A stretch of 32,128 bases of DNA. Source: Cyanobium sp. (GTDB lineage: Bacteria; Cyanobacteriota; Cyanobacteriia; PCC-6307; Cyanobiaceae). This document shows, in pieces, positions 1,043-21,208 of the stretch (position 1 is the first letter of the stretch; each line of letters opens with the position of its first letter). The notes under the pieces were generated by a model that was given only the letters and a program-made list of their open reading frames with translations, searched no databases and was not told where the DNA came from. Location: the NCBI GenBank assembly GCA_007135755.1, contig SLIG01000065.1, forward strand, positions 1 to 32,128, in the 5' to 3' direction. The translations under genes and the position numbers were made by a program.

Positions 1043-1524
1043 CGGGTTACAGCCTCGAGCTCCCCGGAGCGCTGCTGTGCTGCCGCGACGATCAGCTCCG
1101 CCCGTGGATAGCGGAGCTGAAGCTGGGGCCAGTGCACGTAGAGCACATCAAGAAAGGGAAGGACCAGACGGGCGGAGAGGCTGAGGGTCTCGATCCGCGT
1201 GATCGATTCCACGAACACCGTGCGACACCCCAGCACCTTGCCGAGGATCAGGAACGGCACCGCCACGCCGGCACCGGTGGAGAGGATCACGTCTGGCTTC
1301 TGGCGACGCAGCAGCCTCCAGGAGAGCAGGGCATTGCGGATCAGATTGGGCAGGTGGCGGTTGGTGGGGCTGTGGGCCCAGGTCACCGGCTCCCCATCCA
1401 GAGCGGCACGGGTGGTGGCGGTGTCGAAGGTCACCCAGCTGCGGCGGTGCCGGCTCCAGAAGGGCTGCAGCTGGAGCAGACCCTTGAAATGACCGCCGGA
1501 GGAGCACACGAGCAGCAGATGCAT
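1039..1524 (-). CDS. Alg14-like / PssD-type glycosyltransferase subunit
   Basis: This 161-residue protein matches the Alg14/PssD/Cps14F family. It has an N-terminal MHLLLVCSSGGH motif (glycine loop after a hydrophobic strand), a central KPDVILSTGAGVAVPFL block, and the VFVESITRIETLSLSARL segment typical of the family. Members act as the membrane-attached acceptor-binding half of a split GT28 glycosyltransferase and need the Alg13-like partner, which is encoded immediately downstream with a 4-base overlap. The gene follows the double GT2 gene with a one-base TGATG overlap, so translation is probably coupled. The product should add one sugar to the lipid-linked repeat unit at the cytoplasmic face. 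The sugar is not identifiable. Confidence 0.87.
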   Translation of the reverse strand: MHLLLVCSSGGHFKGLLQLQPFWSRHRRSWVTFDTATTRAALDGEPVTWAHSPTNRHLPNLIRNALLSWRLLRRQKPDVILSTGAGVAVPFLILGKVLGCRTVFVESITRIETLSLSARLVLPFLDVLYVHWPQLQLRYPRAELIVAAAQQRSGELEAVTR

Positions 1525-3629: not shown

Positions 3630-3636
3630 GGGTTTC

Positions 3637-5900: not shown

Positions 5901-5901
5901 C

Positions 5902-7014
5902 TCAGGCGATCCCCGTGGCAGGCAGCCGACCCAGACACCAGGCGAAATCACGCCTGACCTGATCGCGAAGGCTCTGGTGATCGAAGCCGTCACGGGGAGC
6001 TGACAGCACGGCGTTCAGGGTGTCGGCCGGGTCGAACCCGCCCAGATCCGAGCCCGGAAGCTGCAGCCGCGTGCACAGATCCTGCCCCTTGTTGGAGTAG
6101 TGCAGATGAAACGGCACCGTGCCGGCGGCCAGTGCGAGCACGGCCGTGTGGTAGCGCACGGCGATCACCCTCTGGGCCAGCTGGAACACCCCCATGGCGA
6201 GCTGCCAGGAGGGAAAGCCTGAATGGTGGAGGAAGGGATCGAGGATGACGGTTCCCGGAGAGCGGACAGCGATCGAGCGGGCCACCTCGAGGTCGTTGTC
6301 GGCGCCGTAGGCCCGTGACTGGATCAGGATTGCAGGGGTGAGGTGGGCCTGAGCAAGGCCTCGGCACAGGGCTGCCATGCGCTCCACGAAGCGGTCGTTG
6401 TCGTGGGCGTACATGCTGTCGAAGGCACGCACCGACAGCACGGCTGAGCGAGAGGGATCGAGACCGCTGGCCTGGAACAGGGCCAGGGCGGCACGACGGG
6501 CGGAATCCGAGCACTCCAGCACGAAGGCGGTGTCGAAGGAGAGGCGGGCCTCCACCCCTGCCTGTCGCAGACGGAGGTGACTCTGGGCGTCACGCACGCA
6601 CACGGCGGCCAGGCGCCGCAGGCAGCGGCACAGGGCGAAAAAACTGAGACCGTGGCAGGAGCGCGGGATCGACTGGCCGAACAGCAGCGTGCGGCTGGCA
6701 TGACGCGTGAGCTCAGCCAGGTTCTGCAGAAACGCCTTGGTGATCAGCCACTCCCTTGAGTTGTTGAAGATGTCGCCACCCACGCTCACGTAGGCAGAGC
6801 AACCGTCAGGACGTCGAGGCAGGAACCTGATGCCAAGGGTTGAGTCGGGCTCGGGATCCTGAACATGCGCCACCAGGTCAGCACCCGGAAGGAGGGTGCG
6901 AAAGGCGCTGTAGATGGCGGCATCACCCAGGTTGAGGGTGCTGTAGGCATTGATCAGCCCGATCAGCTCCAATGGATCAGAGGCCTGGTAATCTGTCAAG
7001 CGTTGGCTTGTCAC
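5902..7014 (-). CDS. Polysaccharide pyruvyl transferase family protein (CsaB/WcaK-like)
   Basis: The 370-residue protein shows the family pattern: an N-terminal NAYSTLNLGDAAI block (about 22-34) matching the N-x-GD start of pyruvyl transferases, VSVGGDIFNN (GGD at 79-81), and a late AVRYHTAVLALAAGTVPF block (Arg287-Tyr288-His289) like the conserved RxH of CsaB. These enzymes transfer pyruvate from phosphoenolpyruvate to a sugar as a ketal, giving the polymer negative charge. It is first in the leftward operon. The start is a GTG (7014) with only a weak upstream purine stretch. No ATG exists before the conserved block, so this start is the best available but is not certain. The substrate sugar is unknown. 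Confidence 0.85.
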   Translation of the reverse strand: MTSQRLTDYQASDPLELIGLINAYSTLNLGDAAIYSAFRTLLPGADLVAHVQDPEPDSTLGIRFLPRRPDGCSAYVSVGGDIFNNSREWLITKAFLQNLAELTRHASRTLLFGQSIPRSCHGLSFFALCRCLRRLAAVCVRDAQSHLRLRQAGVEARLSFDTAFVLECSDSARRAALALFQASGLDPSRSAVLSVRAFDSMYAHDNDRFVERMAALCRGLAQAHLTPAILIQSRAYGADNDLEVARSIAVRSPGTVILDPFLHHSGFPSWQLAMGVFQLAQRVIAVRYHTAVLALAAGTVPFHLHYSNKGQDLCTRLQLPGSDLGGFDPADTLNAVLSAPRDGFDHQSLRDQVRRDFAWCLGRLPATGIA

Positions 7015-7300: not shown

Positions 7301-8347
7301 ATGATGAAGCGACTCGTGTGCCTGGCGAAGGTACTCATGGCTCTGACAACGCCGTTATCCCCAGCCAACGCCCTGCCGCTGTCGGCCGGAGATCGTGTCA
7401 AGGTAACAATCCCTGAAGGAGAAGAATTCAGCGGCATCTTTGAGGTGAACTTGAATGGAGAGCTTGAACTTCCCTATGTCAGGGGAATTCAAGCCGCCGG
7501 GGTTGAGGCCAGGGACCTGGAACAACGTATTCACCAGGCGCTGGTGGCACAGGGATACTTCCAGCCCTCCTTTCTCAAGGTGAGTGTAAATATCCTGCAA
7601 TGGGCACCGGTTGAGGTGTTTGTCAGCGGTTCCACGTTTCAGCCGGGTCGGGTCTTGATCAATGAGTGGAGCGATGCGGAGCAGACGCAGACACCCGTTC
7701 AGCTGACCGGACAGTCCCCGATGAAACGCTTTCTATCGGCCGCGATCCGACAGGCTGGAGGCGTCACGCCTACGGCGGATGTATCGGCGGTGGAGTTGAT
7801 CCGAGGACCCAGGCGTCAGACGCTCGACCTCTCCGGAATCTTCACCGGCGAGCCATTCACCGATGTGCCGTTGATCGCCGGTGACCGAGTGGTGGTTCCC
7901 GACGCTGGGGTGATCAATCCCCTGATCGTGCGGCCATCACAGATCACCCCTGTCGGAGTAAAGATCTTTATCTCCAACCTCACAGTTCCTGCTGCCGGCA
8001 ACGCCGTGGCTGCGATCGGCCGAGACGCCACATCATTCCCCTATGGCTCCCGCTTTTCCCAGGCGGTTGTTTCCGGCAATTGCGCCGGGGGCACAATGTG
8101 GACAAATGCGCGCCGCCGTGCCGTGCTGGTGACCACCGACACGCAGTCGGGCAAGACAACCGTTCTGGAACGGGGGGTGGAAGACCTGCTGCGTCGCTCA
8201 ACGGACGACAGCAACAATCCCTATCTGATGGCCAATGACGCCGTTGCCTGTTATGACTCAGGGGTCAGCAATCTGCGCGATGTGCTGGGAGTAATCAGAG
8301 ACCTGGTGGTACCAGGGGCGCTGATCTATGGCCTGACCAACCCATGA
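7301..8347 (+). CDS. Polysaccharide export outer-membrane protein (OPX / Wza-like)
   Basis: The 348-residue protein starts with a signal peptide (MMKRLVCLAKVLMALTTPLS, cleavage likely after ANA near residue 24). A polysaccharide-export (Poly_export) domain follows at about 25-110, with LSAGDRVKVTIPEGEEFSG and the strand pattern VNLNGELELPYV, then an SLBB-like segment (about 112-200) with QAGGVTPTADVSAVEL and a second AGDRVVVPD. No lipobox cysteine is seen, so it is probably not acylated, unlike E. coli Wza. The C-terminal third (about 215-348) has no family I recognise. It should form or gate the periplasm/outer-membrane export channel. It starts the rightward operon and is four bases from the chain-length gene. 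A second ATG lies one codon downstream. Confidence 0.88.
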   Translation: MMKRLVCLAKVLMALTTPLSPANALPLSAGDRVKVTIPEGEEFSGIFEVNLNGELELPYVRGIQAAGVEARDLEQRIHQALVAQGYFQPSFLKVSVNILQWAPVEVFVSGSTFQPGRVLINEWSDAEQTQTPVQLTGQSPMKRFLSAAIRQAGGVTPTADVSAVELIRGPRRQTLDLSGIFTGEPFTDVPLIAGDRVVVPDAGVINPLIVRPSQITPVGVKIFISNLTVPAAGNAVAAIGRDATSFPYGSRFSQAVVSGNCAGGTMWTNARRRAVLVTTDTQSGKTTVLERGVEDLLRRSTDDSNNPYLMANDAVACYDSGVSNLRDVLGVIRDLVVPGALIYGLTNP

Positions 8348-8351: not shown

Positions 8352-9872
8352 ATGGTGAAGTTCGGCCCCCCCAAGCCACAGCCACAACCCAGGCGAAAAG
8401 TGCCCGGTGCCGATTCACTGGGTAAGGCTCAACGCTTGTTCAGCGAACAGCTGCGCAATGTGCCGCTACCTAGGCCGCAGCATCCACGGGTCTGGTGGTC
8501 TGGGCTGAACCGCAGGGACAAGCTGCGCTGGAGCCGCTACATCGTGGTGAGCGGAATCGCGAACAGCTTCATCTGGGGTTCAAGCCTGCTGATTCTGCTA
8601 ACAGCCAGGCCGGTCTACACGAGCACTTTTGCCGTGGTGCTACCAGGCAATATCAACCAGGTCAATGTCAACCTCCCGGGGATTGGCCAGACAACTGCAT
8701 CAACCGGATCTGCAGGAATGGCAACATCCACGTTTGATCCACGAGCCAATTACGAATATATCTTCAGCAGCGAACGCGTCCTGACACGGGCAGCCACGAA
8801 TGCAGGGCTGGCAGTTGACAGCTTCGGCGAACCACGTATTCGCAGTATCGACAACACCACCCTGATGGAAATTGACGTGACAGGTCCGTCTCCTGAGGTG
8901 GCTCGCAAGAAAGCCTTTGCCCTGCACGGGGCCATAGAAGAACGGCTGAATGAACTACGGGTCAGTGAGATGAGGCAGCGGGAGGGACCCACGCAGATGA
9001 TTCTTCTGCAAGCGCGTTCGACACTTGAAGATGCTCAGAAGGACCTGTCTGCGTACAAGTTGTCTTCCGGACTGAACTCTGCGGAGCAGGTCGAGACCAT
9101 TTCCACCAATATCGAACAGTTGCGCCGTCAACGGGCTGAGCTCGCCGCACAGCAGGCCCTTGCAGAGGAAAGTCTGGCAATGCTTCGGGGACAGCTTGGC
9201 CTCAGTTCGGCTGAAGCTGCCGATGCCTTCAAACTGCAGGCTGACCAGATCTTTCAGCAGAACCTGAAAGACTTCAGTGAAGCCAGTTCAATTCTCCAGG
9301 TTCAGACAGCCAAGTTCGGTCCCAATCACCCCCGCATCGTCAAGGAGGTGAAGCGGCAGAAAGCCGCTGAGCAAGCCATGAATGGACGAGCCAGCACGGT
9401 GCTGGGGCGCGTCCCCTCGGGCAGAACCCTGACACAGCTGGCACTCGCAAGCACGGGTTCAGGCAGGGATGCACTGTTCCAGAAACTGGTTTCGAGTCAG
9501 TCTGAAGCCTCAGGCGCGGCCGCTCAGGTCACCAAACTCGATCAGCAGATCGGCGTCCTCGAAGAGCGGCTCCAGAAGTTGTCGCAGCGGCAACCCACCC
9601 TGGACAGTCTTCGACGCAACGAGCAGATTGCGGAAGCAGTGTTTGCCTCAACGCTGGCCAAACTCGATCTCGGTCAGGCGGATGTGTTTGCGGCATTTCC
9701 CTTGATCGAGATGGTGGTCGATCCCACTCTTCCTACCAAACCGACAACCCCAAAGAAAGGCTTGCTGTTGGCGGGAGCACTGGCGGGCTCAGTGTTTACA
9801 TCGGTGGGGCTCTGGGTCCTGTGGATTCGGAAGCCATGGATCAAACGACTGGCCACCTGGATTTCCACCTGA
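8352..9872 (+). CDS. Wzz/GumC-type chain-length (co-polymerase) protein without a kinase domain
   Basis: The 506-residue protein has a long proline-rich cytoplasmic N-terminus (1-60), a first transmembrane helix (about 63-84), a large periplasmic region and a second helix (about 470-491). The periplasmic part carries extended heptad-like coiled coils (about 205-300 and 380-430) and FGPNHPRIVKEVKRQKAAEQ, the usual GumC/Wzz loop. The proline-rich PTLPTKPTTPKKG before the last helix is the family signature. Only about 15 residues follow the second helix, so the BY-kinase domain found in many Wzc proteins is absent, and no separate kinase gene is visible. It should set polymer length with the Wzy-like protein next to it and couple to the OPX protein. 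Confidence 0.88.
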   Translation: MVKFGPPKPQPQPRRKVPGADSLGKAQRLFSEQLRNVPLPRPQHPRVWWSGLNRRDKLRWSRYIVVSGIANSFIWGSSLLILLTARPVYTSTFAVVLPGNINQVNVNLPGIGQTTASTGSAGMATSTFDPRANYEYIFSSERVLTRAATNAGLAVDSFGEPRIRSIDNTTLMEIDVTGPSPEVARKKAFALHGAIEERLNELRVSEMRQREGPTQMILLQARSTLEDAQKDLSAYKLSSGLNSAEQVETISTNIEQLRRQRAELAAQQALAEESLAMLRGQLGLSSAEAADAFKLQADQIFQQNLKDFSEASSILQVQTAKFGPNHPRIVKEVKRQKAAEQAMNGRASTVLGRVPSGRTLTQLALASTGSGRDALFQKLVSSQSEASGAAAQVTKLDQQIGVLEERLQKLSQRQPTLDSLRRNEQIAEAVFASTLAKLDLGQADVFAAFPLIEMVVDPTLPTKPTTPKKGLLLAGALAGSVFTSVGLWVLWIRKPWIKRLATWIST

Positions 9873-9887
9873 GCACACGAGAGAAGC

Positions 9888-11288
9888 ATGGGACTCAGGA
9901 GCTGGATCGGGGGATGGAGTCATGACAGCATTCCGTCAGAGACGCATCTGAAGCCTGAGAACTGGCCAGAACGGTTGATCTGGTATTCCCTCGTTTTCAC
10001 CTATCCGATCTGGTTAATCGGCGGACTCTATGTGGTGGGTTCCGTTCTTGGCTGGCTGTTGTTGCTGTGCCTGGTGATCAAGATGCTGGCGGCATTCGAC
10101 AATCCTGAAGAACACGAGAAAGTGACGATCTCTCCGGTGATCTGGCTCTGGATCCTGGGAATGCTGGTGATGCAGGTGGCTCTGGTTCTTGGCCACGTCG
10201 ACTTCAACCTTGGCACAGCGACAATCATCAAGTCATCGATTGGTTGGGCTAAGGGCTGGGCCGCCCTGGCACTGTACCCCCTAGCCGGATGCCTGAACAT
10301 CCGCAACAAGATTATCAGTAGAGCCATCTGCATCGTTGGCCTCCACACTCTGATCATCACGCCAATCCTGATGCTCACCCCGCATCTTGGGCTTCCTCAG
10401 GTGCTCTACGTGTCGCCGCTGAGGGCAATTGGGGGGCCCGGAAACGAGTTCTTTGATGTTCCGCTCTATGAAGTCGACGGCAGCACCGGGATTCTGCGCT
10501 GGCGACTGTTCACACCCTGGGGACCTGCGCTTGGGTTTGTGGGCAATGTGAACTTCATGATCTCTTTACTCGAACAAGATCGGCGATGGAAACTTGCTGG
10601 CATGGGCGGCGCAATCCTGATGTGCCTGATCTGCAAGTCACGGCTAGCGCAAGTCGCAATCCTTCTCATTCCTACTGTCACATTTCTGATCGCGCGGATA
10701 CGACAGCCCTTAACACTGATAGGCCTGGGTGTAGCTTCTTACATTGGTGGTATTCTATCGCCAGTCATCCTACAGATGGCCAGTGAGTTCTGGGAAAGTT
10801 TCAAGGGAGCAAGAGCCGGATCAACACGCGTTCGGATGGCTCTCAAGCGGATTGCCGTGTATCGATGGGAGCGAGAGGCTCCGCTCTGGGGGCACGGAAT
10901 CGTCGAACGTGGTCCGCATCTGGTAGAAGCCATGCCGATCGGATCGCATCACACCTGGGCAGGCCTTCTGTTCGTAAAGGGGATAGCGGGTTTTATTGCA
11001 CTGGCAGTGCCAATGCTGGCAACGTTCATCGACCTTCTTCGCCGAGCCTCTAACCCTCGATACAAGCTGGGCTCAGTAGGCCTCAGCATGATCGTGATCC
11101 TGTTCCTCTATACCTTTGGAGAGAATCTAGAAATCCTGGTATATCTATACTGGCCAGGGATGGTGATCATGGGAATGGCCTTGCAGGAGTGCAAGGAACC
11201 GACCAACGCTGTGGCCTCACTCAGCTCACAGGCAGGCAGTGGACCAGAAGAAAGGTCAACCTTTGATGCAGAACCTCATGGTCTTTGA
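9888..11288 (+). CDS. Wzy-like O-antigen/exopolysaccharide polymerase (membrane protein)
   Basis: The 466-residue protein has about ten hydrophobic helices and a large extracytoplasmic loop before the last ones. That loop includes KRIAVYRWEREAPLWGHG followed by GSHHTWAGLLFVKGIAGF, the arrangement typical of Wzy/O-antigen ligase (Wzy_C) proteins, where Arg and His in the loop are functionally important. A purine-rich GAGAGAAG lies just before the ATG. It follows the chain-length gene by 15 bases and completes the rightward polysaccharide set. The expected role is block polymerisation of flipped repeat units on the periplasmic face. An O-antigen ligase role is possible, but its neighbours (OPX and Wzz-type) favour a polymerase. 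Confidence 0.82.
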   Translation: MGLRSWIGGWSHDSIPSETHLKPENWPERLIWYSLVFTYPIWLIGGLYVVGSVLGWLLLLCLVIKMLAAFDNPEEHEKVTISPVIWLWILGMLVMQVALVLGHVDFNLGTATIIKSSIGWAKGWAALALYPLAGCLNIRNKIISRAICIVGLHTLIITPILMLTPHLGLPQVLYVSPLRAIGGPGNEFFDVPLYEVDGSTGILRWRLFTPWGPALGFVGNVNFMISLLEQDRRWKLAGMGGAILMCLICKSRLAQVAILLIPTVTFLIARIRQPLTLIGLGVASYIGGILSPVILQMASEFWESFKGARAGSTRVRMALKRIAVYRWEREAPLWGHGIVERGPHLVEAMPIGSHHTWAGLLFVKGIAGFIALAVPMLATFIDLLRRASNPRYKLGSVGLSMIVILFLYTFGENLEILVYLYWPGMVIMGMALQECKEPTNAVASLSSQAGSGPEERSTFDAEPHGL

Positions 11289-11349: not shown

Positions 11350-11955
11350 ATGTACGGTCTTGTCAACCGGGCCATCCAACAGATGGTGACCACGCAGCAT
11401 GGAGAGGACGTTTGGAATCGTATCAAGGAAGCCGCTGATCTGTCAGACCTTGATTTTTTCTCAACCTTTCAGGCCTATCCCGATGACGTGACGCACCGAC
11501 TCATCGCGGCCGCATCGGAGGAGCTGGGCCTGAAGGGGGAGGAGATCATGCAGGCCTTTGGGGAGTACTGGATCACCTACACGGCCTCAGAAGGATATGA
11601 ACAGTTGCTGGAGAGTACCGGTGAAACACTTCCTGAATTCCTGGATCATTTGGACACCCTGCACTCCAGGGCCGGACTTTCGTTCCCACAACTGCAACCT
11701 CCGTCCTTTCGATGCGAACATGCTGCCAACCAATCGATGAATCTCGAATACCGATCCAAGCGCCAAGGCCTGGCGCCGATGGTGATCGGTCTACTGCATG
11801 GCTTAGGCAAGCGGTTTCAGACATCTGTGACGGTTGAGCAAACTGCCTCCCGCGACCGAGGAGATGCACAGGATCTCTTCCACGTGCACTATTCCAAGCC
11901 ATGGGCTGAATCCGATTCCAGCTGCGCGGCTGATGACGACTCGCCAGCCACATAA
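11350..11955 (+). CDS. H-NOX haem nitric-oxide sensor protein
   Basis: A stand-alone H-NOX (HNOB) domain of 201 residues. It begins [13 protein letters not shown], has a Trp at 74, the proximal haem-ligand region LDTLHSR with His105, the haem-propionate motif YRSKR (Tyr134, Ser136, Arg138), and [17 protein letters not shown] with Met144. Starting at the ATG at 11350 gives exactly the numbering I recall for the Nostoc H-NOX (W74, H105, Y134/S136/R138, M144), which decides the start over GTG 11341 and ATG 11344. A distal tyrosine of the O2-binding type is not seen, so an NO-selective ferrous haem is predicted. The last 30 residues are polar and less conserved. It sits 16 bases before a kinase with an HNOBA-like domain, its expected partner. 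Confidence 0.95.
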
Positions 11956-11958
11956 CCT

Positions 11959-11962
11959 AGGA
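11959..11962 (+). promoter_or_regulatory. Ribosome binding site deciding the HNOBA kinase start
   Basis: AGGA nine bases before the ATG at 11972. Two upstream in-frame ATGs (11834 and 11933) fall inside the H-NOX gene and lack such a site, so 11972 is preferred. Confidence 0.5.
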
Positions 11963-11971
11963 ACTGAACTG

Positions 11972-14569
11972 ATGGTTTCAACAGTTCAGCTGACAGGGGA
12001 CAACTGCGATCGCCTATTCCCCTTTCACCTCATTCTCGATCGAAATCTTTGTATTGTCGCAGCTGGTTCCGTTCTCAGACGAATCCTGCCAGACGCCCTG
12101 CTCCTGGGACAACCGCTGGAGTTCGAGTTTCGACTGAAGCGGCCTGACATCGTCCTGGACTTCGATGATCTTTGCGCTTCTAGAAATCAGCTCGTAATCC
12201 TGGAGTCATTATCGTCTCCGCTGCAACTCAAGAGTCAGATCTGCTGGCTGGTCGATAGGGATCAATTGCTGATCGTTGGCACACCATGGGTTGTAGATTT
12301 TGAGGATCTTAAGTCTCTCGGACTCAAGCTCAACGACTTTCCCTTTCACGATTCCGCTGTTGACTATCTCTTTCTGTTGCAAGCTCGCAATGTCGCGCTT
12401 GAAGAAAGCCAGAAGCTCAATGAACTTCTCATTACACAGCGAAAAGAATTAAGTGACAATGCGAGACGACTGATATCGCTCAATCAGGAACTTGAAGCCG
12501 CCAGATCAGCAGCGGAAGCGGCCAATGCGGCAAAGGACTCGTTCCTGGCAACGATGAGCCATGAAATCAGGACGCCGATGAATGCGATCATTGGCATGGC
12601 CGATCTGCTCCAGGACTCCCAGCTTGGCCCAACCGATAGAGAGTATGTTGAGATCATCAATAATAACACAGGCTCTCTGTTAGCTATTATCAACGACATC
12701 CTTGATTTCTCAAAGATTGAATCAGGAGCGATGCATCTGGAGGCAGAGAGTTTTGAGTTGCGAAGCACTATCGAAGAGGCATTGGATCTGATGGCGTCCC
12801 GCATCGCTGGACGCCATCTTGAGCTGATTCTTGATCTCGACCCATCGCTCCCCAGGGCCGTGATCGGTGATCTCACGAGGCTCCGTCAGATCCTCTGGAA
12901 TCTGCTGAGCAATGCCGTCAAGTTCACGCCATCTGGTGAGGTCATCATGGCCGCTTCGGCTGAACTACTGGATGTGCAGCTTGGCAAACAACCCACCTGT
13001 CGCATCATCCTTGAAGTTCGGGACACCGGCATCGGGATCCCAGCGGATCAGATCCCCCACCTCTTCGATCCCTTCCATCAGGCCGACACCTCGATGGCTC
13101 GCCGCTATGGGGGCACAGGGCTTGGGCTCGCCATCACGCGTCGTCTCTGCGAACTGATGGGGGGAGGCATCAACGTCTGCAGCACCGAAGGAGAGGGCAG
13201 CACCTTCAGGGTCAGCCTGTTTGTGAGGCTCGACGCATCAGCCCCGGCCCCCCCCCTTCACACCGATGCCCTTTCCTCTGCAGATGGAGCAGGGGCGATC
13301 CTGCTTCTGGTCAGCAACACAACCCTCAGAGAGACGCTGGCGCGGCAGCTCAGGCAAAGCAGCTTTGCTGTAGCAGCCCCAGCCCTGACCAAGCTGGGAG
13401 AAAGGGAACACCCGATGACGCGCAACGAGATCACTGCTCAGGTGGTTGTGATCGACAGCAAGCTGCTGACAGCAACCACCGCCCAGTCCGAAGCGTTGAT
13501 TACAGAGCTGCCGCATCTTCACCGTTATCCCTGGATTGTGGTGGCCTACAGGCATGAAGAGTTGGACTCAGCGCTGATGCCAGATACGTTCCCTATGATG
13601 GTCAACAAGCCAGTCAGGATCACCCAACTCAAGAACGCAATCGTTCAACAGCTGCATCGTCACAGTGACCGAGAGCAGACCACCCGCCAAAGCGGCAGGT
13701 TGCCAGAGACACCGGCAGCAACCGCACTGCAGGACACGGGTCGGAAACTCGCAGACCGTCTGCCGCTACGAATTCTTGTGGTCGATGATGTTGCCGTGAA
13801 CCGCATGCTGGCTCAGAAGTTGCTCGATCGCCTCGGCTATCGGGCCGAGGCCGTGGCCTCGGCTGCCGATGCTGTGAGGGCTGTGCGGGAACAGCCCTAT
13901 GACGTGCTGTTCATGGACGTTCAGATGCCAGAGATGGACGGCTACACGGCAACACGGTCCATCCGCAGCCTCCCGCCGTCGGTGCTGCAACCCTGGATCA
14001 TCGCCATGACTGCCCATGTGAGCTCAGAAGACAGGCAGAAGTGCCGCAGCTCGGGCATGGATGATTTTCTCGGCAAGCCCATCGTTCCGGCCGAACTCAT
14101 ACGTGCCCTGGAGCATTATCAACCTCGCCAGGGATCAAGCAACATAGGTATCCAGCCAACACCAATGAAGTCACGGCCAATCGACCACCAAGAGAGACCG
14201 GAAGAGGAACCGCTCGATGCATCAGCCTGGCAGGAGTTGTTGCAGATGCTGGGAACCGAAGCGGATTCAATCCTCACAGAGCTGATCGATATGTATCTTG
14301 AGGACTCGATACGTCAGGTGTCAGCTATTGTGATGACGCAGCAATGCAAGGATGGGCCGGGAATGATCGCAGCCGCTCATGCCCTACGGTCCCCCAGTGC
14401 CAGTCTCGGGGCAAAAAGACTTGCCTCAGTATGCCAACAGCTTGAGGATTCACTCCGATCCAATCCAGTCCAATGGCCTAGTGAAACGGTGGATCATCTA
14501 CTCGCAGAGGCGGCACGTGTGAGCGATGCGCTACGGCGTCGGCGCCCCCAGGTGGCCGGCCCTTCCTGA
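11972..14569 (+). CDS. H-NOX-associated hybrid histidine kinase (HNOBA - HisKA - HATPase - pseudo-receiver - REC - HPt)
   Basis: The 865-residue protein starts with an HNOBA-like (haem NO binding associated) domain at about 10-135: [23 protein letters not shown], and [16 protein letters not shown] signalling coiled coil (about 135-190) leads to HisKA with [10 protein letters not shown] (His197), then HATPase with NAVKFT, DTGIGIP and GTGLGLAI. Residues about 441-565 resemble a receiver (late NKPVR) but lack the N-terminal acidic pair. A true receiver follows (599-717; VVDD, FMDV with Asp649, GKP with Lys702), then a C-terminal HPt domain with [14 protein letters not shown] (His803). It is soluble. 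H-NOX proteins usually inhibit or tune such kinases in trans. The HPt can pass phosphate to an outside receiver, and the next gene, eight bases away, encodes one. Confidence 0.93.
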
Positions 14570-14577
14570 GCCAGCAG

Positions 14578-15768
14578 ATGATCCAGCAAGGTGCCATGGA
14601 GGGATCCCTCTCGCCTGTCACGATCCTCCTGGTCGATGACGACCGCGTTCACTCCCGCATCCTTGAGACTCGTCTGAAGGCGCAGGGCTACCAGGTCCAG
14701 ATTGCCGATTCAGGTGCAAGCGCTCTGGAGCAGGCACGCCGAGACACGCCCACGCTGATCCTCTGCGATTGGCTGATGGAGGGGATGGACGGTCTTGAGG
14801 TCTGCCGGCAGATCAAGGCAGATCATAGACTCAAGACAACGCATTTCATTCTCATTACCTCTCGATCGCGAGTGGAAGATCGGGTGATTGGGCTTGACTG
14901 TGGCGCAGATGACTTCCTCAGCAAACCTGTCGATCCCGAAGAGCTGCTGGCACGGGTAAGGTCTGGGATTCGCCTGCACCAGGCAAATGAACGGCTGCAG
15001 CTCATGGCCGCAGAACTTCAGCGACAGAAGGGCCGTCTTGATCGGGAACTGGCAGAGGCAGCCGGCTATGTGCGATCACTTCTCCCCCAGGCGACGTCTG
15101 GCAGTGTCATCGTTGATGCTCGCTTTTTACCCTCACAGGAACTAGGCGGTGATTCCTATGACTACTTCTGGATTGACGACGATCATTTACTGATCTATCT
15201 AGCCGACGCATCTGGGCATGGCCTGGCCGCGGCACTTCCCTCTATCTCACTGCACAATCAGCTGCGTTCGCGCTCATTGAATATTGATCTACGCGATCCA
15301 GCTCAAGCGCTGAAAGCACTGAATGCTGGTTTTCAGATGGAGAAGCAGCAGGGACGTTACCTCACGCTGTGGTATGGGGTTTACCAGTCCTCAACGAGAA
15401 CAATGCGCTATGCCACTGCCGGCCATCCCCCCGCGCTGCTATGGGGATTAGACAATGGCTCAAAGGCAAAATGGCTGAAGGGTCAGGGTATTGCTCTTGG
15501 TCTGTTTGAGGATTCAGACTACAGCACGGAAGTGCATGCGGTGGATCCCGGAGCATGCCTACTGGTGTACAGCGATGGGCTTTACGAAATCACAACACCT
15601 GGCGAACCAGTGTGGTCCTTTCCAGAATTTCTCGACCTGGCCGAGAAATGCCGATTCAAGCTGCAGGAAAAAGATGGCCTGGACAGCCTCGTCGCAGAGA
15701 TTCAGAAGCGGAGTGGGGGTACTGCGTTCTCAGACGATTACTCAGTAATTCGTGCATTGTTTCCATAA
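14578..15768 (+). CDS. Response regulator with PP2C-type (RsbU/SpoIIE) serine phosphatase output
   Basis: The 396-residue protein has an N-terminal receiver at 13-130 (ILLVDDD, phospho-acceptor Asp64 in LCDWLMEG, Lys116 in LSKP), a coiled-coil linker (about 135-168) and a SpoIIE/RsbU PP2C domain (about 170-396). Metal-binding blocks are visible: LGGDSYDYFWID (190-201), YLADASGHGLAAAL (207-220), ATAGHPPALL, LVYSDGLYE and SDDYSVI near the end. Such proteins dephosphorylate a serine on STAS anti-sigma-factor antagonists. It follows the H-NOX kinase by eight bases, so it is the likely phosphorelay target, and a STAS protein gene converges on it 23 bases away. The ATG at 14596 has a better-placed AAGG and would shorten it by six residues. 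Confidence 0.93.
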   Translation: MIQQGAMEGSLSPVTILLVDDDRVHSRILETRLKAQGYQVQIADSGASALEQARRDTPTLILCDWLMEGMDGLEVCRQIKADHRLKTTHFILITSRSRVEDRVIGLDCGADDFLSKPVDPEELLARVRSGIRLHQANERLQLMAAELQRQKGRLDRELAEAAGYVRSLLPQATSGSVIVDARFLPSQELGGDSYDYFWIDDDHLLIYLADASGHGLAAALPSISLHNQLRSRSLNIDLRDPAQALKALNAGFQMEKQQGRYLTLWYGVYQSSTRTMRYATAGHPPALLWGLDNGSKAKWLKGQGIALGLFEDSDYSTEVHAVDPGACLLVYSDGLYEITTPGEPVWSFPEFLDLAEKCRFKLQEKDGLDSLVAEIQKRSGGTAFSDDYSVIRALFP

Positions 15769-15791
15769 ACAGTGGCTGGCTGCGTGTCAAC

Positions 15792-16124
15792 TCAAGATTC
15801 GGCAGGGCGCTCAGCGACAAACGTGAAGCATTCGTGACTACTGGGAAAGATCGTGAATACCCTGTCCATGTTTGTAAGCTCAAGAACAAGCCTTAGCTGA
15901 CTGTTAAGACTGCACAGGAAAATCTGTCTTCCATGCTCCCTGACGCGCTTAAGAGCAGAAACCAAGGCACCAAAGCCACTGCTATCCATAAACTCAACCT
16001 CTTGAAAATCAATCAGGAAATCCATCGCTTTCTCTGCCAAAAGTGAGCAGATCTGGGCGCGCAGATCAGCACCATTCTGGGAATCGATAAAGCCCCTGGG
16101 CTTCAGGATATAAAGATTGTTCAC
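15792..16124 (-). CDS. STAS-domain anti-sigma-factor antagonist (SpoIIAA/RsbV-like)
   Basis: A single STAS domain of 110 residues: NNLYILKPRGFIDSQNG at the start, then FLIDFQEVEFMDSSGFGAL, where Ser48 is in the position phosphorylated by anti-sigma serine kinases. The terminal MDRVFTIFPSSHECF segment is also typical. The start is a GTG at 16124 with AGGA eight bases upstream (16133-16136); there is no ATG. In partner switching, the unphosphorylated form binds the serine kinase and releases its target. The RsbU-like phosphatase gene points at it from the other side, so this is its likely substrate. No RsbW/SpoIIAB-like kinase or sigma factor is encoded here. The same DSSG site occurs in the STAS-sugar transferase at the left edge. 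Confidence 0.92.
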   Translation of the reverse strand: MNNLYILKPRGFIDSQNGADLRAQICSLLAEKAMDFLIDFQEVEFMDSSGFGALVSALKRVREHGRQIFLCSLNSQLRLVLELTNMDRVFTIFPSSHECFTFVAERPAES

Positions 16125-16313
16125 CTATTGGGTCCTACAAATTACCTACAGTAGCACCATGCCACGACTCCAACGTCGCGGGGGGCGATGACCACACTGG
16201 ATCATCCCTGATCGGGAAGCAAGACGTGACGGTGCAGACTTGGCAAGCCGGGTACCAATGGCAACGCGTGGCAGTCGGGCTTGGTTAAACTTGAGTTCAC
16301 TGGCAGGATGCCC
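16125..16313. promoter_or_regulatory. Divergent intergenic region between STAS and PAS genes
   Basis: These 189 bases lie between the leftward STAS gene and the rightward PAS gene and should hold both promoters. Purine-rich sites exist for both starts: AGGA at 16133-16136 (minus strand) and AGGA at 16305-16308 (plus strand). I could not identify convincing -35/-10 pairs. No gene of useful length is present. Confidence 0.3.
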
Positions 16314-16661
16314 ATGGTCACGATTGAAGAACTCCGGCAACGAGCGTTACCGTTTGTATCCGCCGATCAAGAGGGGCTGATCGAAGAGATCAATGAACAG
16401 TTCACGTCGGTTTATGGCTGGACCATCGACGACCTGAAAGGCCACTCTCTGTCGATGATCCTGCCAGAATCCTTTAAAGATGCCCATCACTTAGGGTTCT
16501 CCCGCTTTCGCATCATCGGCGAATCCCAGATTCTGAATCACCCGCTGGAACTGATGACCGTCTGCAAAGATCAGCGGGAAATCATGTCGGAACATTTCAT
16601 CGTTGCCGAACGCCTTGGGGAGAGCTGGGTGTTTGCCGCGACGCTGCGTCCGCTGGCGTGA
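16314..16661 (+). CDS. Stand-alone PAS-domain protein
   Basis: This 115-residue protein is a single PAS fold: LPFVSADQEGLIEEINEQF, then VYGWTIDDLKGHSLSMILP (the usual G-W-x-x-x-D-L-x-G block), DAHHLGFSRF and a closing set of strands. It has no output domain. The ATG at 16314 is chosen because AGGA (16305-16308) lies five bases upstream; an ATG at 16308 overlaps that site. It precedes a PAS hybrid kinase by seven bases, so the two are probably co-transcribed and may act together, this one as a sensor or adaptor. A ligand cannot be predicted; no flavin-binding (LOV) cysteine motif is visible. Confidence 0.8.
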   Translation: MVTIEELRQRALPFVSADQEGLIEEINEQFTSVYGWTIDDLKGHSLSMILPESFKDAHHLGFSRFRIIGESQILNHPLELMTVCKDQREIMSEHFIVAERLGESWVFAATLRPLA

Positions 16662-16668
16662 GTCTCGG

Positions 16669-18309
16669 ATGGAGGACCTGACCCTCGTCAACCAGCTCCG
16701 CGCGACCCTGGGCAGGCTGGAGGCAGGACTCGCTGCGGTTGAGGAAGGCCTGGTGTTCACCAATCTCGATGGAATCATTGAGTGGACCAACGCGGCCTTT
16801 GATCGGTTCGTCGGTCGCTCCCGGCTGCAGTGCCTTGGGGTGGATCTCACCACTCTGCTTCCTGAGCGCTATCAGGATGGCCAGGCTCAACCAGCTGACT
16901 GTCTGCTGTTCTGGGCCAAGACCGGGGCCGGACGAGCCACCTGGGATCTTTCACCCGCACCGCCACGGCGAGTTGTTGAAGTGGTGTGGGCGACCGTCGA
17001 TATACCAAGCAAGCCGTCGTTCGTCTTCACCTTCAGGGATCAGAGCGCGATTGTGCAGGCACAGGATGCCTTGATCGATGCCCGCAATCATCTGGAGATC
17101 CAGGTTGACGAGCGAACACGTGAACTGCAGCTGGCTCGAGATGCGGCGTTGACAGCCAGTCAAACAAAGACTCGGTTTCTGGCAAGCATGAGCCATGAGA
17201 TCCGCACACCAATGAATGCGGTGATTGGCATGACTGAACTGTTGCTTGAGAGTCAGTTGAACTCGGATCAGATGGAGATGGTGACAACCATTCAAGGCAG
17301 TGGCGAGCATCTCCTCGGTGTGATCAACGACATTCTCGATATCTCACAGATTGAGTCAGGACGGATAACGCTCAATTCGAGAGCATTCGATATGCTGGCC
17401 TTGCTCAACGATTGTCGCGTTCTCTTTCAGCATCAGGCTAACGCCAAGGGCCTGACCATGGAGATGGATCTCCCGCCTGACATGCCGCAATGGATACTTG
17501 GAGACGATCTTAAGACTCGCCAGATTCTGGTAAACCTACTTGGCAATGCCTGCAAGTATACTCATCACGGAAACGTTCGTCTTTCGCTTGGATTTACAGG
17601 CAGCGAGACAGGAAGCTGCAGGTTTCAGTTTCATGTCACGGACACTGGTATCGGCATTCCTGATGATGTGCTGCCTTTTATTTTTGAAGAATTCAGCAGG
17701 CGATCCAACCGATCTCTGAGCACCCAGAGTGCTGGCCTTGGCCTCTCGATCTGTCGGCGCCTTTGCGATCTGATGGGCGGAGAGATCTCCGTGCAGTCCT
17801 GCATTGGTCAGGGCACCCGGTTCACGGTGCAGTTGCCCTTTGAGATCACCCAGAAACCTCACCAGGAACCAGAAGCACCTGCATGGAACAGCAGTTCTGA
17901 TGCGAATGCCACTGAGAGAATCCGGATTCTTGTGGCTGATGACAGTCGCGTGAATCAGCGAGTGCTAGAGCTGATGCTTGGTCGATTCAATCTCGACGCT
18001 GAGCTGGTGGGAGATGGTGAGGCAGCACTAGCACGGATTGCTGCTGGAGGGATTGATCTTGTCTTTATGGACGTCGAGATGCCCAAGCTGGATGGACTGG
18101 CCGCAACTCGCCAATTGCGTGCCAGCGGTTTTGAAGATGTCTACATCATCGCACTAACAGCTTATTCCTACAGTTCTCACCGTCTTGACTGTGAGGCTGC
18201 TGGTATGAACGATTTTCTTGCAAAACCACTCCGTCATCAAGATCTCTGTGACGCCTTAACGCGTTTCCGTGAGTTTCAGAGCCAGCCCGATCAGTACTCT
18301 CCCGGATGA
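16669..18309 (+). CDS. PAS hybrid histidine kinase (PAS - HisKA - HATPase - REC)
   Basis: The 546-residue soluble protein has a PAS domain (about 18-130; VFTNLDGIIEWTNAAFDRF), a coiled coil (130-165), HisKA with [14 protein letters not shown] (His176), HATPase with NACKYT, DTGIGIP and AGLGLSICRRL, and a C-terminal receiver with ILVADDSRVN, FMDVEMPKLDG (Asp468) and FLAKP. It lacks an HPt domain and a DNA-binding or enzymatic output, so its phosphate must pass through another protein. The H-NOX kinase upstream has a free HPt that could serve. It follows the PAS-only gene by seven bases. Its HisKA region is very like that of the H-NOX kinase, suggesting duplication within one family. Confidence 0.92.
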   Translation: MEDLTLVNQLRATLGRLEAGLAAVEEGLVFTNLDGIIEWTNAAFDRFVGRSRLQCLGVDLTTLLPERYQDGQAQPADCLLFWAKTGAGRATWDLSPAPPRRVVEVVWATVDIPSKPSFVFTFRDQSAIVQAQDALIDARNHLEIQVDERTRELQLARDAALTASQTKTRFLASMSHEIRTPMNAVIGMTELLLESQLNSDQMEMVTTIQGSGEHLLGVINDILDISQIESGRITLNSRAFDMLALLNDCRVLFQHQANAKGLTMEMDLPPDMPQWILGDDLKTRQILVNLLGNACKYTHHGNVRLSLGFTGSETGSCRFQFHVTDTGIGIPDDVLPFIFEEFSRRSNRSLSTQSAGLGLSICRRLCDLMGGEISVQSCIGQGTRFTVQLPFEITQKPHQEPEAPAWNSSSDANATERIRILVADDSRVNQRVLELMLGRFNLDAELVGDGEAALARIAAGGIDLVFMDVEMPKLDGLAATRQLRASGFEDVYIIALTAYSYSSHRLDCEAAGMNDFLAKPLRHQDLCDALTRFREFQSQPDQYSPG

Positions 18310-18417: not shown

Positions 18418-20232
18418 TTGCTGATCAGCTATCGAGTTTCGCAGCATCTTCTATTGAATAGCATCAAAAGTCGCCTCGGAGATCTGGTTACGATCACAGC
18501 AGCGGAGATCGATCCAGATCTACACGCCAAGATTGCAGAGCCCGGCCAGATGGGAAGCGCGGCTTACCGGCAAGCCTCAGAGCCACTACTTGATCTGCGC
18601 CGCGCCGTGCCAGATGTCTACTATGCCTATAAGACAACAACTTATTCTTTGTCCTTGACAGTTCTTATTACATCAAGAATCATGGAGATGACAACAATGT
18701 GGCAATAACTGGCCAGCTCTATGACGACGCTCCCCCCGCAGCCCAAGTTGCTGGAGAGACTGGACGTCTCACCATCAGCCCTGAACCCTATACCGACCGG
18801 TGGGGAACCTTTCTGAGCAGCTTTGCAGCTATTCAGGGTCGCGATGGCGACACCGTTGGCGTCGTTGGAGTTGATCTGTCGCTGGCCACCCTCAATCGTC
18901 AGCTACGCCCCCCTGCGTCTGACGCTCGGGATGTCCCTGCTTGGCACCGGGATGCTGTCCTGCCTCGTTGGGATGCTGGTCTGGCGCTCGGAGCGATCCA
19001 GGGAAAAGGCGATCCAGGACATCCTTCACGCTCGCAATATGGCCCGAGACGCCGCGAGGAACTTAGCAGCTGCCAGTCGTGCAAAGAGCACATTTCTTGC
19101 CACGATGAGCCATGAAATCCGCACACCCCTTAATGGTGTGATTGGTCTCACCGATGCGCTACTGACCACAACTCTTACTTCTGAACAGAGATCCTGCTTG
19201 AACAGCGTGAAGGATTCAGGCGAGTCACTGCTGCTGTTACTCAGTCAACTCCTTGACTTCGCGGCCATTGAAAGCAGTTCAGTTCTTGTTGACCAGGTCC
19301 CTGTTCGTATCAGAGAACTGCTTCAGGAGGTTATTTCCCTCGTTGCTCATTCCTCTGCATCGAAAGGGTTGACAACATCCGTTGAGGTCGCAACCGATGT
19401 CCCGGATGTTGTACTCACCGACCCTGCTCATCTTCGCCTGATCCTCGAGCAACTCATCGCTAACGCGATCAAGTTTTCCAGCAGCGGCACGGTGGAGCTG
19501 GCTGTGAACGGCCAACCTCCCCAGCCGGATGGGACGCTGAACCTGGTCTTCCGGGTCAGCGACACCGGAAGCGGTCTGAGTGACGCTGACTTGCGGCACA
19601 TCTTCGAGCCCTTCAGCCAAGTGGATTCCTCCAGCACGAAACAACATGGTGGTGTCGGACTCGGGCTGGCCATCTGCCGGGCCCTGGCCACGGCATTAGG
19701 TGGGAGTATCGAGGTCGAAAGTGCTATCGGCAAAGGCACAACCTTTCTGGTCACAGTTCCAGTCACGTCCACACAAGAGCCTGCTCGCAATGGCGTGGCA
19801 ACGGGGGATCCGGACGTCCCCCCAAGCAACCCTTTTGCGGCATCCCATCCGCTGCGGATCCTTCTTGTCGACGATAATCCTGTCAACATCCGCGTGTGTG
19901 TGCTGATGCTGGGCCGACTTGGGTACAAGGCCAGCACCGCCAGCGATGGCGAGGAGGCTGTCCATCAGCAGCAGAGTCTCGACCCCGATCTGATCCTGAT
20001 GGATGTCCGAATGCCCAGACTCGACGGCCTCGAAGCCACACGCAGGATTCGCGACAACTGTGGTAGTGGCCAACGACCGTGGATCGCGGCAATCACGGCC
20101 AATGCCAGAGAGAGCGACCGGGTGGAGGCGCTGAAGAGCGGCATGAACGACTTCATCAGCAAGCCCGTCGAGCTTGAGCGGCTGCGATCCGTGCTGATGA
20201 GAGCCCATGCGGCGATCCAGCAGCGCCCATAG
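18418..20232 (+). pseudogene. Frameshifted membrane sensor hybrid histidine kinase
   Basis: Three reading segments join into one recognisable kinase. The first encodes ITAAEIDPDLHAKI and AVPDVYYAYKTT. Near 18634-18641 (acaacaac) the sense shifts by -1 into NLFFVLDSSYYIKNHGDDNN, then QLYDDAPPAAQ and EPYTDRWGTFLSSFAAI and VGVVGVDLSL, the usual periplasmic sensor of this cyanobacterial family. At the six-C run 18908-18913 the sense shifts again; removing one C joins LNRQLRP to LRLTLGMSLLG, the second membrane helix. HisKA, HATPase and REC then follow intact. Translation from the likely TTG start at 18418 would end at 18706 after 96 residues. The initial membrane helix is also broken by stops. 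Either this is a true pseudogene or two single-base sequencing errors hide an intact gene; a programmed shift is unlikely because no slippery heptamer is visible. Confidence 0.75.
18931..20232 (+). CDS. Intact kinase core of the frameshifted gene (HisKA - HATPase - REC)
   Basis: The open 3' part could be translated from the ATG at 18931, in the second membrane helix, giving 433 residues. It holds part of the helix (MSLLGTGMLSCLVGMLVW), a coiled coil, HisKA with SHEIRTPLNG (His61 from this start), HATPase with NAIKFS, DTGSGLS and GVGLGLAICR, and a receiver with ILLVDDNPVN, LMDVRMPRLDG and ISKP. All catalytic motifs are preserved, which argues that the damage is recent or that the core is still made. 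The frame remains open back to 18823, with an ATG at 18844, but that extension reads the sensor out of frame. It converges on the GAF-GGDEF gene with four bases between stops. Confidence 0.6.
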   Translation: MSLLGTGMLSCLVGMLVWRSERSREKAIQDILHARNMARDAARNLAAASRAKSTFLATMSHEIRTPLNGVIGLTDALLTTTLTSEQRSCLNSVKDSGESLLLLLSQLLDFAAIESSSVLVDQVPVRIRELLQEVISLVAHSSASKGLTTSVEVATDVPDVVLTDPAHLRLILEQLIANAIKFSSSGTVELAVNGQPPQPDGTLNLVFRVSDTGSGLSDADLRHIFEPFSQVDSSSTKQHGGVGLGLAICRALATALGGSIEVESAIGKGTTFLVTVPVTSTQEPARNGVATGDPDVPPSNPFAASHPLRILLVDDNPVNIRVCVLMLGRLGYKASTASDGEEAVHQQQSLDPDLILMDVRMPRLDGLEATRRIRDNCGSGQRPWIAAITANARESDRVEALKSGMNDFISKPVELERLRSVLMRAHAAIQQRP

Positions 20233-20236: not shown

Positions 20237-21208
20237 TCAACGCCGTCCGATCCCGCCCGTCTGCCAGGCCTGCCTCAGCGCCGCTTCCGCACGCTGGTAA
20301 AGATCACTGAACACGGAATCCTGGCTCATCCGGCTCGAGACTCCCGCACTGATGCTCAAGGGATGGCGTGTTCCATCCACGGCCACGCCCTGGCAGGCGA
20401 TCCGCGTGCGGATGCGTTCAGCAAGTGCCATTCCTGCCTCGATGCCCTGCCCACACAGCAGGACGGCCAGCTCCGTGCTTGCCACCCGTGCCCCCTCATC
20501 ATTGGCCCCCAACTCGGAGCGGACCATGACGGCAAGATCCTGAAGCACCCGATCCCCATGGCCGGTGGCAAAGCGCTCGTTCAACCCGGCACCATCGTCG
20601 AGGTCGAACAGGGCCAGGGTAAGGGGCTCTCCGCTCAGCAGCGAGCGTTGGAATTCACGCTGCCCCGCTTCGAAGAAGGGTCGGCGGTTCTGTAGGCCAG
20701 TGAGAGGGCAGAGATAACGGTCCCGCCGTGACTCCAGACTATGGATGACCAACCCGGCGAGTTCCTCGAGCAACCGGCGCTCGTTGTCCTCGAGGCGCCT
20801 GGGCTCCGGGCTGATCACACAGAGCGTGCCCAGAGCGTGCCCGTCACGGGTATGCAACGGTGCCCCGGCATAGAAGCGAATGTGGGGGTCTCCGGTGACC
20901 AAGGGATTATTACGGAAGCGGGCATCATCCCTGGCATCGCCCACAACCATCACCTCGCTGGAACAGATGGTGTGGGCACAGAAGGCGAGCTCTCTGGCCG
21001 TTTCCGTCGCCTCCATGCCCACACGGGAGAGGAACCACTGCCGGTCTCGATCGACGAGAGAGATCAATGCAATCGGCATGCCGAGCATCTGGCTCGCGAT
21101 CCTGGTGATGCGGTCGAAGTCCTCGTCCGGCTCGGAATCAAGAATGTGGAACGAATCGAGTTCCCTCTGACGGTCAGCCTCGTTCTCCGGCAGGGGAAAG
21201 GCACACAT
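20237..21208 (-). CDS. GAF - degenerate GGDEF protein
   Basis: The 323-residue protein starts with a GAF domain (about 22-160; FDRITRIASQMLG, ALISLVDRDRQWFLSRVG, FYAGAPLHTRDGHALGTLCV), followed by a GGDEF-like domain (about 165-320; DRYLCPLTGLQNRRPFFE, ALFDLDDGAGLNERF, GHGDRVLQ). The catalytic GG(D/E)EF signature is replaced by ASTEL at 243-247 in RVASTELAVLLCG, and the metal-site DxDxFK is altered to DLDDGAG. Diguanylate cyclase activity is therefore unlikely. It may bind GTP or c-di-GMP or act by protein contact. The ATG at 21208 fits the common PLPENEADR N-terminus of this GAF group. It faces away from the HAD gene across a 145-base gap. Confidence 0.88.
   Translation of the reverse strand: MCAFPLPENEADRQRELDSFHILDSEPDEDFDRITRIASQMLGMPIALISLVDRDRQWFLSRVGMEATETARELAFCAHTICSSEVMVVGDARDDARFRNNPLVTGDPHIRFYAGAPLHTRDGHALGTLCVISPEPRRLEDNERRLLEELAGLVIHSLESRRDRYLCPLTGLQNRRPFFEAGQREFQRSLLSGEPLTLALFDLDDGAGLNERFATGHGDRVLQDLAVMVRSELGANDEGARVASTELAVLLCGQGIEAGMALAERIRTRIACQGVAVDGTRHPLSISAGVSSRMSQDSVFSDLYQRAEAALRQAWQTGGIGRR

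Follow-up and report, generated by a model that had tools for sequence, protein, structure and literature searches.

A candidate partner switch on the initiating transferase of exopolysaccharide synthesis in Cyanobium, with H-NOX as one sensor

Gene content of the locus

We examined a 32,128-base stretch of DNA from Cyanobium sp. (contig SLIG01000065.1, our C74; hereafter the window), which is an entire contig of a 2.75 Mb genome. The window encodes an H-NOX nitric oxide (NO) sensor, a hybrid histidine kinase, a receiver-PP2C phosphatase, and a single-domain STAS protein beside a polysaccharide locus, and its edge holds the start of a phosphoglycosyl transferase (PGT) that itself carries a STAS domain. 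Based on gene content and linkage, we consider it fairly probable that these genes belong to a partner-switching module controlling how active the enzyme that starts Wzx/Wzy-type exopolysaccharide synthesis is, with H-NOX as one sensor. The five proteins named in an earlier note on this DNA, which had proposed a circuit from NO to exopolysaccharide, are all present by Pfam matches at 11350-16124 and 518(-), adjoining wza-wzc-wzy-like genes, and the residues that it numbered (HPt His803, receiver Asp64, DSSG Ser48 and Ser72) are correct.

11350..11955, plus strand: H-NOX nitric oxide sensor (HNOB 2.5e-53, Pfam)
11972..14569, plus strand: HNOBA-HisKA-HATPase-receiver-HPt hybrid kinase with His197, Asp649, and His803 (Pfam); start codon chosen by hand
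14578..15768, plus strand: receiver-PP2C (SpoIIE) phosphatase with Asp64 (Response_reg 3.6e-28, SpoIIE 1.1e-37)
15792..16124, minus strand: single-domain STAS protein with DSSG Ser48 (STAS 3.1e-19)
3..518, minus strand: STAS domain and first transmembrane stretch of a STAS-PGT fusion, DSSG Ser72 (STAS_2 8.6e-8, Pfam)

Structures of Alr2278 from Nostoc match the window H-NOX end to end (7e-75), and His105 and Y134-R138 (YRSKR, fitting YxSxR) stand at the same positions as in Alr2278. We take YxSxR together with the proximal His to be the heme motif. The hybrid kinase carries HNOBA (5.9e-27), HisKA, HATPase_c, Response_reg, and Hpt (3.1e-9) domains in a single open reading frame (ORF). The phosphatase, for which 3eq2 is the best solved relative (1.6e-35), consists in Pfam of the receiver and SpoIIE domains only, with no added STAS-kinase domain. 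The small STAS protein scores above the NCBIfam cut-off for ant_ant_sig and matches SpoIIAA/RsbV structures, and the DSSG phospho-serine motif is present in both STAS domains of the window. Plus-strand genes occupy 7301-15768 in the order Wza-like, Wzc-like, Wzy-like, H-NOX, HNOBA hybrid kinase, and receiver-PP2C, with the small STAS gene convergent. The minus-strand arm runs through a pyruvyl transferase, a glycosyltransferase, a flippase, family 2 glycosyltransferases, and PssD-/PssE-like genes to the STAS-sugar transferase at the contig end.

Because the contig end cuts the gene, the sugar transferase is incomplete in the window, which holds a 171-amino-acid N-terminal piece ending at the first transmembrane stretch. 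The full-length fusion of a relative (G124/L034) is 82% identical to this piece and has a Bac_transf match of 1.9e-64. The earlier note's assignment of a STAS domain to the sugar transferase is thus borne out by relatives, in which STAS and Bac_transf share one frame, while the transferase part itself lies outside the window. In full-length relatives, the STAS domain is followed by a linker with THPSVR and a small monotopic PGT (Pfam Bac_transf). A structure model of the fusion matches the PglC and SpoIIAA/RsbV folds and puts the DSSG serine at the beginning of a helix. The nearest named records to the window fusion are from Synechococcus and Cyanobium strains.

DSSG is found in 17/17 family fusions gathered by protein search and in 28/28 gathered by a phylum profile search, neither of which required the motif. 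We made this recount on motif-free sets because rows of our alignments A1 (17 fusions) and A3 (41 fusions) had been selected by a DSSG-type motif, so that the invariance of DSSG in them proves nothing. The named fusion loci were also gathered by motif patterns, and 62 of these 63 have DSSG, the remaining one being cut off.

Conservation of the module in the family

Among 201 sampled genomes of the family, the receiver-PP2C (called at E<=1e-50) was found in 18 and the fusion (E<=1e-20) in 19, with both in 18 (Fisher 9e-25, kinship ignored). The fusion occurs alone in a single genome, G103, which is 88% complete and in 390 contigs. Genera g1, g6, g35, g24, and g51 each include some genomes with both genes and others without. 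The two genes lie on the same contig, within about 45 kb, in 17/18 genomes, and are about 525 kb apart in G054.

H-NOX was found in 15/201 family genomes, 10 of which also have the receiver-PP2C; the other five (G140, G192, G195, G150, and G062) have H-NOX without it. In all 10, H-NOX, the HNOBA kinase with its HPt, the receiver-PP2C, and the convergent STAS gene are clustered. H-NOX follows a same-strand exopolysaccharide gene (wzy-like or pyruvyl transferase) by 52-155 bases, and cassette and fusion share a contig at a distance of 4-14 kb, again in 10/10; linkage this constant places the cassette beside the fusion more often than chance would. The linkage, seen also in Richelia sinica FACHB-800 and Calothrix sp. 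PCC 7103, excludes the finding that the earlier note held would speak against its circuit, namely, that the cassette is never near a STAS-sugar transferase in relatives.

The sensor is less constant, as 8/18 module genomes carry the module without H-NOX. An HPt lies directly upstream of the receiver-PP2C, or is fused just upstream of it, in 18/18 module genomes. The 10 genomes with H-NOX encode the HPt as part of the upstream kinase. Of the eight lacking H-NOX, seven have a stand-alone HPt gene that abuts or overlaps the receiver-PP2C ORF at its start (weakly matched in G054, at 26 bits), and G069 carries the HPt within an 850-amino-acid kinase that has no HNOBA. Since the HPt, the receiver-PP2C, the STAS-transferase, and the small STAS gene by the phosphatase are the constant parts, it is the sensor that varies, and on this sequence evidence, H-NOX appears to be one optional plug-in sensor outside the module core. 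The co-occurrence that the earlier note proposed to look for splits: it holds for the receiver-PP2C with the fusion and for the HPt (18/18 each), but H-NOX is present in only 10/18, two of them broken.

In G132 (L029, near 9982-10534), H-NOX is frame-shifted with the kinase, phosphatase, and STAS genes kept, representing either natural loss or an assembly error; in G048 (L030, near 10010-10246), the H-NOX match ends after 79 residues in an otherwise kept cassette, again through loss or assembly error.

A kinase gene behind the fusion

The earlier note's circuit from NO to STAS proteins is partly supported by gene linkage, but its H-NOX is optional, and it lacks the RsbW-like kinase of a partner switch, the gene for which follows the fusion in relatives. 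This kinase came to light through weak matches just after the fusion when module loci were searched with the own genome's three RsbW-like kinases. Pfam HATPase_c_2 is above the cut-off in 9/9 sampled fusion-linked kinases. The gene lies directly downstream of the fusion in 17/17 testable family loci (15 by a profile built from eleven kinases plus two more, with the window and the frame-broken G005 outside this test), and it overlaps the end of the fusion by 4 bases in 8 family loci. The best solved relative of the kinase profile is RsbW of the RsbV/RsbW complex (2.9e-6), and the best fold match of a kinase model is SpoIIAB bound to SpoIIAA.

A second kinase profile (A2) matches in 20/201 family genomes, comprising the 18 fusion genomes besides that of the window, together with G155 and G023. 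The latter two carry a module-type kinase without a detected STAS-transferase, at a contig start in one (G155:C23:303-791) and in a one-contig genome in the other (G023:C1:3048368-3048838).

In the full set of distinct fusions, the kinase gene lies downstream of 58/101 (56 plus two more; 5/101 have <450 bases of downstream sequence). When kinase presence is mapped as a label on the fusion tree, 11 changes are counted against a mean of 33 for shuffled labels, a difference to which near-copies contribute. A Leptolyngbya-type clade (11 rows, two of which stop at a contig edge) has no kinase behind the fusion.

Proposed mechanism

From these observations, we infer the following scheme. H-NOX, NO-bound or not, would tune the HNOBA hybrid kinase, whose receiver would hand phosphate to the HPt (His803) of the same protein; Asp64 of the receiver-PP2C would receive it next. 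The phosphatase would then dephosphorylate the small STAS protein, the fusion STAS domain, or both at the DSSG serine. The RsbW-like kinase encoded just behind the fusion would bind or phosphorylate these same STAS domains, and the transferase would be free or not depending on the STAS to which the kinase is bound. Protein phosphorylation may in this way turn the first step of slime synthesis on and off. If the system behaves like HnoX-HahK and SypE-SypA of Vibrio fischeri, NO would lower phosphatase activity and polysaccharide output.

The most solid element of this scheme is that the kinase, small STAS, phosphatase, and STAS-transferase probably form one switch. The step from HPt to receiver is well supported as a prediction from gene order, the putative NO input draws on family knowledge of H-NOX, and the likely direction of control is taken from SypE/SypA. 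More tentatively, and as a reading that could well go either way, the RsbW-type kinase could be an anti-transferase factor that holds or phosphorylates the STAS domain of the initiating PGT until free STAS, its phosphate removed by a receiver-PP2C, lures it away, throughout the cyanobacteria and with exchangeable sensors, of which the NO version would be one type.

Several observations weigh against the proposed switch. Profile searches found no fusion-linked kinase gene in the window or its assembly, which we attribute to the contig break; the break fits this absence without proving it. Module-clade kinases (alignment A2, with L034, L148, L181, and others) keep the N box, but their G2 ATP box, GGxGL in most other fusion-linked kinases, is EAHWGL or a similar sequence, and with these glycines replaced, some module kinases may be weak or may bind STAS without phosphorylating it. 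The own genome encodes three other strong RsbW-like kinases (four weaker rows, all long proteins, were outside this comparison), and the one present in all 38 genomes of a tracking sample might be the true STAS kinase. Of the 28 fusions in the phylum profile set, 18 have the fusion-linked kinase behind them, and a Nostoc-type clade (11 rows) has none behind the fusion. Among 20 higher-ranked fusion loci outside the family, 6 have a PP2C within about 10 kb and most do not, fractions that lean to close relatives because the loci examined were higher-ranked. Finally, the predicted TM score (pTM) of 0.58 for the fusion model does not fix the relative placement of its domains.

The three kinases of the own genome were each considered as the module kinase in the tracking sample of 38 genomes (18 module-positive and 20 negative) and set aside. 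The C9 kinase is found in 38/38, the C188 kinase in 14/38 (9/18 positive, 5/20 negative), and the C189 kinase in 8/38, mostly as weak matches; none of these distributions tracks the module.

Comparison with known systems

The earlier note knew of no described system with such a chain, which is too strong a claim, since NO and polysaccharide have already been connected in V. fischeri through HnoX-HahK-SypF-SypE-SypA, and HptB-HsbR-HsbA is a comparable relay. Our comparisons draw on portions of the cited papers, and statements about them apply to those portions. The V. fischeri pathway begins with HnoX, which binds NO and controls HahK. HahK in turn feeds into SypF, SypG, and SypE, the last of which governs SYP polysaccharide through the STAS protein SypA; SypE is thought to be pushed toward its phosphatase state by phosphorylation, and biofilm is promoted by SypA in its unphosphorylated form (PMC12369376, PMC3610818). 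The likeness extends to an H-NOX with its kinase, a central kinase (SypF), a STAS kinase/phosphatase regulator, a STAS protein, and a polysaccharide output. However, SypE itself also has STAS kinase activity, whereas the window system would use a separate RsbW-like gene behind the STAS-fused transferase, and SypG adds transcriptional control in V. fischeri, for which no STAS-transferase fusion is described in those portions. SypF presumably serves in an HPt role.

We take the Pseudomonas aeruginosa HptB-HsbR-HsbA relay to consist of an HPt, a PP2C regulator, and a STAS antagonist, with several kinases converging on one HPt. The pairing of an HPt with a receiver-PP2C is shared by the module (18/18 genomes, weak in G054). 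The output differs, having been described in P. aeruginosa as RpoS control (PMC6482189) and as acting via the diguanylate cyclase HsbD (PMC7647112), whereas here it would be a sugar transferase. With RsbU-RsbV-RsbW and SpoIIAA-SpoIIAB, the module shares a PP2C, a DSSG STAS, and a kinase that is RsbW/SpoIIAB-like by profile and fold, but the conserved neighbor of the kinase here is a membrane enzyme carrying STAS. The HmpU-HmpV-HmpW phosphatase/STAS/kinase switch of Nostoc punctiforme is tied to hormogonium motility and polysaccharide with its downstream effector undefined (PMC6495340, PMC8256260), and, unlike the window system, is not linked in those portions to H-NOX or a STAS-transferase.

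At the level of the transferase, Anabaena all4160 has an N-terminal STAS domain on a glycosyltransferase (PMC8256260) and is needed for heterocyst envelope polysaccharide (PMC4390870). In contrast to the window system, partner-switch genes are not reported with it in the portions cited, and we suspect that it falls in the Nostoc-type fusion clade without an adjacent kinase. In Myxococcus xanthus, EpsW binds EpsZ, so that a signaling protein controls an initiating PGT posttranslationally (PMC12802240). The control proposed here is likewise posttranslational, but EpsW consists of a lone response-regulator domain, and the main text of that paper never uses the word STAS. We rejected the synechan regulators XssS/XssR/XssQ as a parallel, as XssQ is a STAND transcription activator and STAS is not mentioned in the portion cited (PMC8205485).

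The STAS-glycosyltransferase architecture (all4160, PMC8256260) and control of an initiating transferase by a signaling protein (EpsW-EpsZ, PMC12802240) are therefore already in print, as far as those portions go. Among the titles and abstract openings listed for the open-licence literature, we found no paper joining an RsbW-like kinase and PP2C/STAS switch to a STAS-fused initiating transferase. What appears to be new is a genomic case for a partner switch acting on an initiating PGT. How biofilm STAS proteins reach the polysaccharide machinery is a gap in the cited portions, where the target of SypA and the effector of HmpV are undefined (PMC8256260, PMC6495340). A STAS domain fused to the initiating transferase, with a matching kinase gene next to it in relatives, names a target and makes the question testable. 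If the kinase is an anti-transferase factor, partner switching would act directly on exopolysaccharide synthesis at its first membrane step, and the initiating transferase would become a candidate for the target that SypA and HmpV still lack. Should the H-NOX branch operate as proposed, NO would set slime output in picocyanobacteria.

Alternative explanations

The best surviving alternative, which we nevertheless regard as unlikely, is a classical RsbV-type output in which the small STAS protein makes an anti-sigma kinase release its sigma factor, polysaccharide responds through transcription, and the transferase STAS domain is a bystander or sink. The small STAS protein does score as an anti-sigma antagonist, the genome has three strong RsbW-like kinase genes at other sites, and HmpV of Nostoc is suspected of acting on sigma factors, according to the portion cited (PMC6495340). 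However, this explanation sits poorly with the co-occurrence of the phosphatase and STAS-transferase in 18/18 genomes and with an RsbW-like kinase gene that tracks the fusion from directly behind it, when the distributions of the other three kinases do not follow the module.

Rather improbable is that the transferase STAS domain is a mere scaffold or ligand-binding part and the neighboring kinase serves another target. STAS domains do have other roles, as in MlaB of an ABC transporter (PMC7367683, from the portion cited), and the Nostoc-type fusions lack an adjacent kinase. Against this stand the retention of DSSG in both motif-free sets of fusions and the position of the kinase gene directly after the fusion in every testable family locus.

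Output through cyclic di-GMP, with STAS acting on the neighboring GAF-GGDEF protein as HsbA does on HsbD and SiaC on SiaD (PMC7647112, portion cited), ranks low: the gene is in the examined stretch of 10/10 family H-NOX genomes and 6/8 module genomes without H-NOX, but its GG[DE]EF signature is missing in 16/16 rows, making cyclase activity unlikely, and the gene was not found in the examined stretch of L148 or L181, which keep the phosphatase-STAS-fusion core. Equally doubtful is that the H-NOX cassette is a passenger on a mobile polysaccharide island with no action on it. In favor of this, the locus is patchy (18/201 genomes), its genes mostly travel together, and H-NOX is disrupted in 2/10; against it, the stand-alone HPt found ahead of the phosphatase in most H-NOX-free module genomes is replaced by the HPt of the HNOBA kinase, and the same gene set recurs in Nostocales.

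Distribution outside the family

Phylum numbers refer to even samples, and our named loci (L) and genome handles (G) partly overlap. The N-terminal fusion profile matches 106/386 phylum genomes at 1e-12, some in the STAS or transferase part alone, and 88/386 at <= about 3e-32 (a count of the rows listed), including the frameshift-split G005. In that genome (L028, L049), the STAS-transferase is frame-broken, and one TAG lies within the receiver-PP2C match. STAS-transferase fusions also occur in two gammaproteobacterial records, L244 and L263 (Thiohalomonas and a symbiont metagenome-assembled genome).

H-NOX was found in 28/386 phylum genomes, 24 of them outside the family. We examined 20 H-NOX regions from 19 of these 24, some shortened by contig ends (e.g., L133); the surroundings of H-NOX in G242, G245, G296, G218, and G271 fell outside that comparison. 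Only G278 (Richelia sinica FACHB-800) has the receiver-PP2C, STAS, and STAS-transferase beside H-NOX among the 20 regions, and the full H-NOX set outside the family is found in R. sinica (L148/L208, same contig) and in Calothrix sp. PCC 7103 (L210). In G242, G499, and G224, the locus has an HNOBA kinase with no adjoining H-NOX. The HNOBA-HPt kinases of L181, L183, and L184 are 1,320-1,333 amino acids long and likewise have no adjoining H-NOX, which occurs elsewhere in each genome. A long PP2C protein (722-783 amino acids) with no receiver match takes the place of the phosphatase in L189 (11151-13319), L221 (11736-14084), and L232 (11693-14044), where it adjoins the kinase, STAS-transferase, and STAS genes. 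These receiver-less proteins suggest a different input.

Polysaccharide genes and other neighbors

The remaining genes of the window form the two arms of the polysaccharide locus and a group of signaling genes beyond the small STAS gene.

515..1042, minus strand: PssE-like glycosyltransferase subunit (NF041548 PssE 8.4e-20, under the curated cut-off)
1039..1524, minus strand: PssD-like glycosyltransferase subunit (NF041549 PssD 3.9e-31, slightly under the curated cut-off)
1524..3767, minus strand: tandem family 2 glycosyltransferases (Glycos_transf_2 in two stretches, 1.7e-72); ORF start uncertain
3637..5085, minus strand: polysaccharide flippase, Wzx-like (Polysacc_synt_3 6e-57); ORF start uncertain
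4908..5993, minus strand: group 1 glycosyltransferase (Glyco_trans_1_4 1.9e-28)
5902..7014, minus strand: polysaccharide pyruvyl transferase (PS_pyruv_trans 4.2e-23)
7301..8347, plus strand: Wza-like export protein (Poly_export 2.8e-9)
8352..9872, plus strand: Wzc-like chain-length protein (weak NCBIfam chain-length matches, 5e-6, under the cut-off)
9888..11288, plus strand: Wzy-like membrane protein (position and hydrophobic sequence only; kept beside wza/wzc in relatives)
16281..16661, plus strand: small PAS protein, a frequent module neighbor (PAS_9 3.9e-4, under the cut-off; relatives)
16603..18309, plus strand: PAS hybrid histidine kinase without HPt (Pfam; relatives); start uncertain
18418..20232, plus strand: third hybrid histidine kinase, frame-broken (HisKA/HATPase/REC in 18823-20232; homologue L019 matches in two frames)
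20237..21208, minus strand: GAF and degenerate GGDEF protein, a conserved neighbor (GAF 1.8e-18, GGDEF 6.7e-18)

The earlier note's description of a Wzx/Wzy locus is well founded for the flippase (Polysacc_synt_3), the export protein (Poly_export), the pyruvyl transferase (PS_pyruv_trans), and the glycosyltransferases, which match their families well; the Wzc-like protein matches weakly, and the Wzy-like protein has zero family matches in Pfam, NCBIfam, and PHROGs. The ORF picker behind the neighborhood maps is greedy, and where a locus is GC-rich, it can skip a gene or place its start wrongly; later searches recovered the L028 H-NOX and the L039 and L045 kinases. The PAS hybrid histidine kinase (16603..18309) is possibly a second input. 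The third hybrid kinase (18418-20232) is spread over two frames where relatives have one ORF, which points to a pseudogene or an assembly error.

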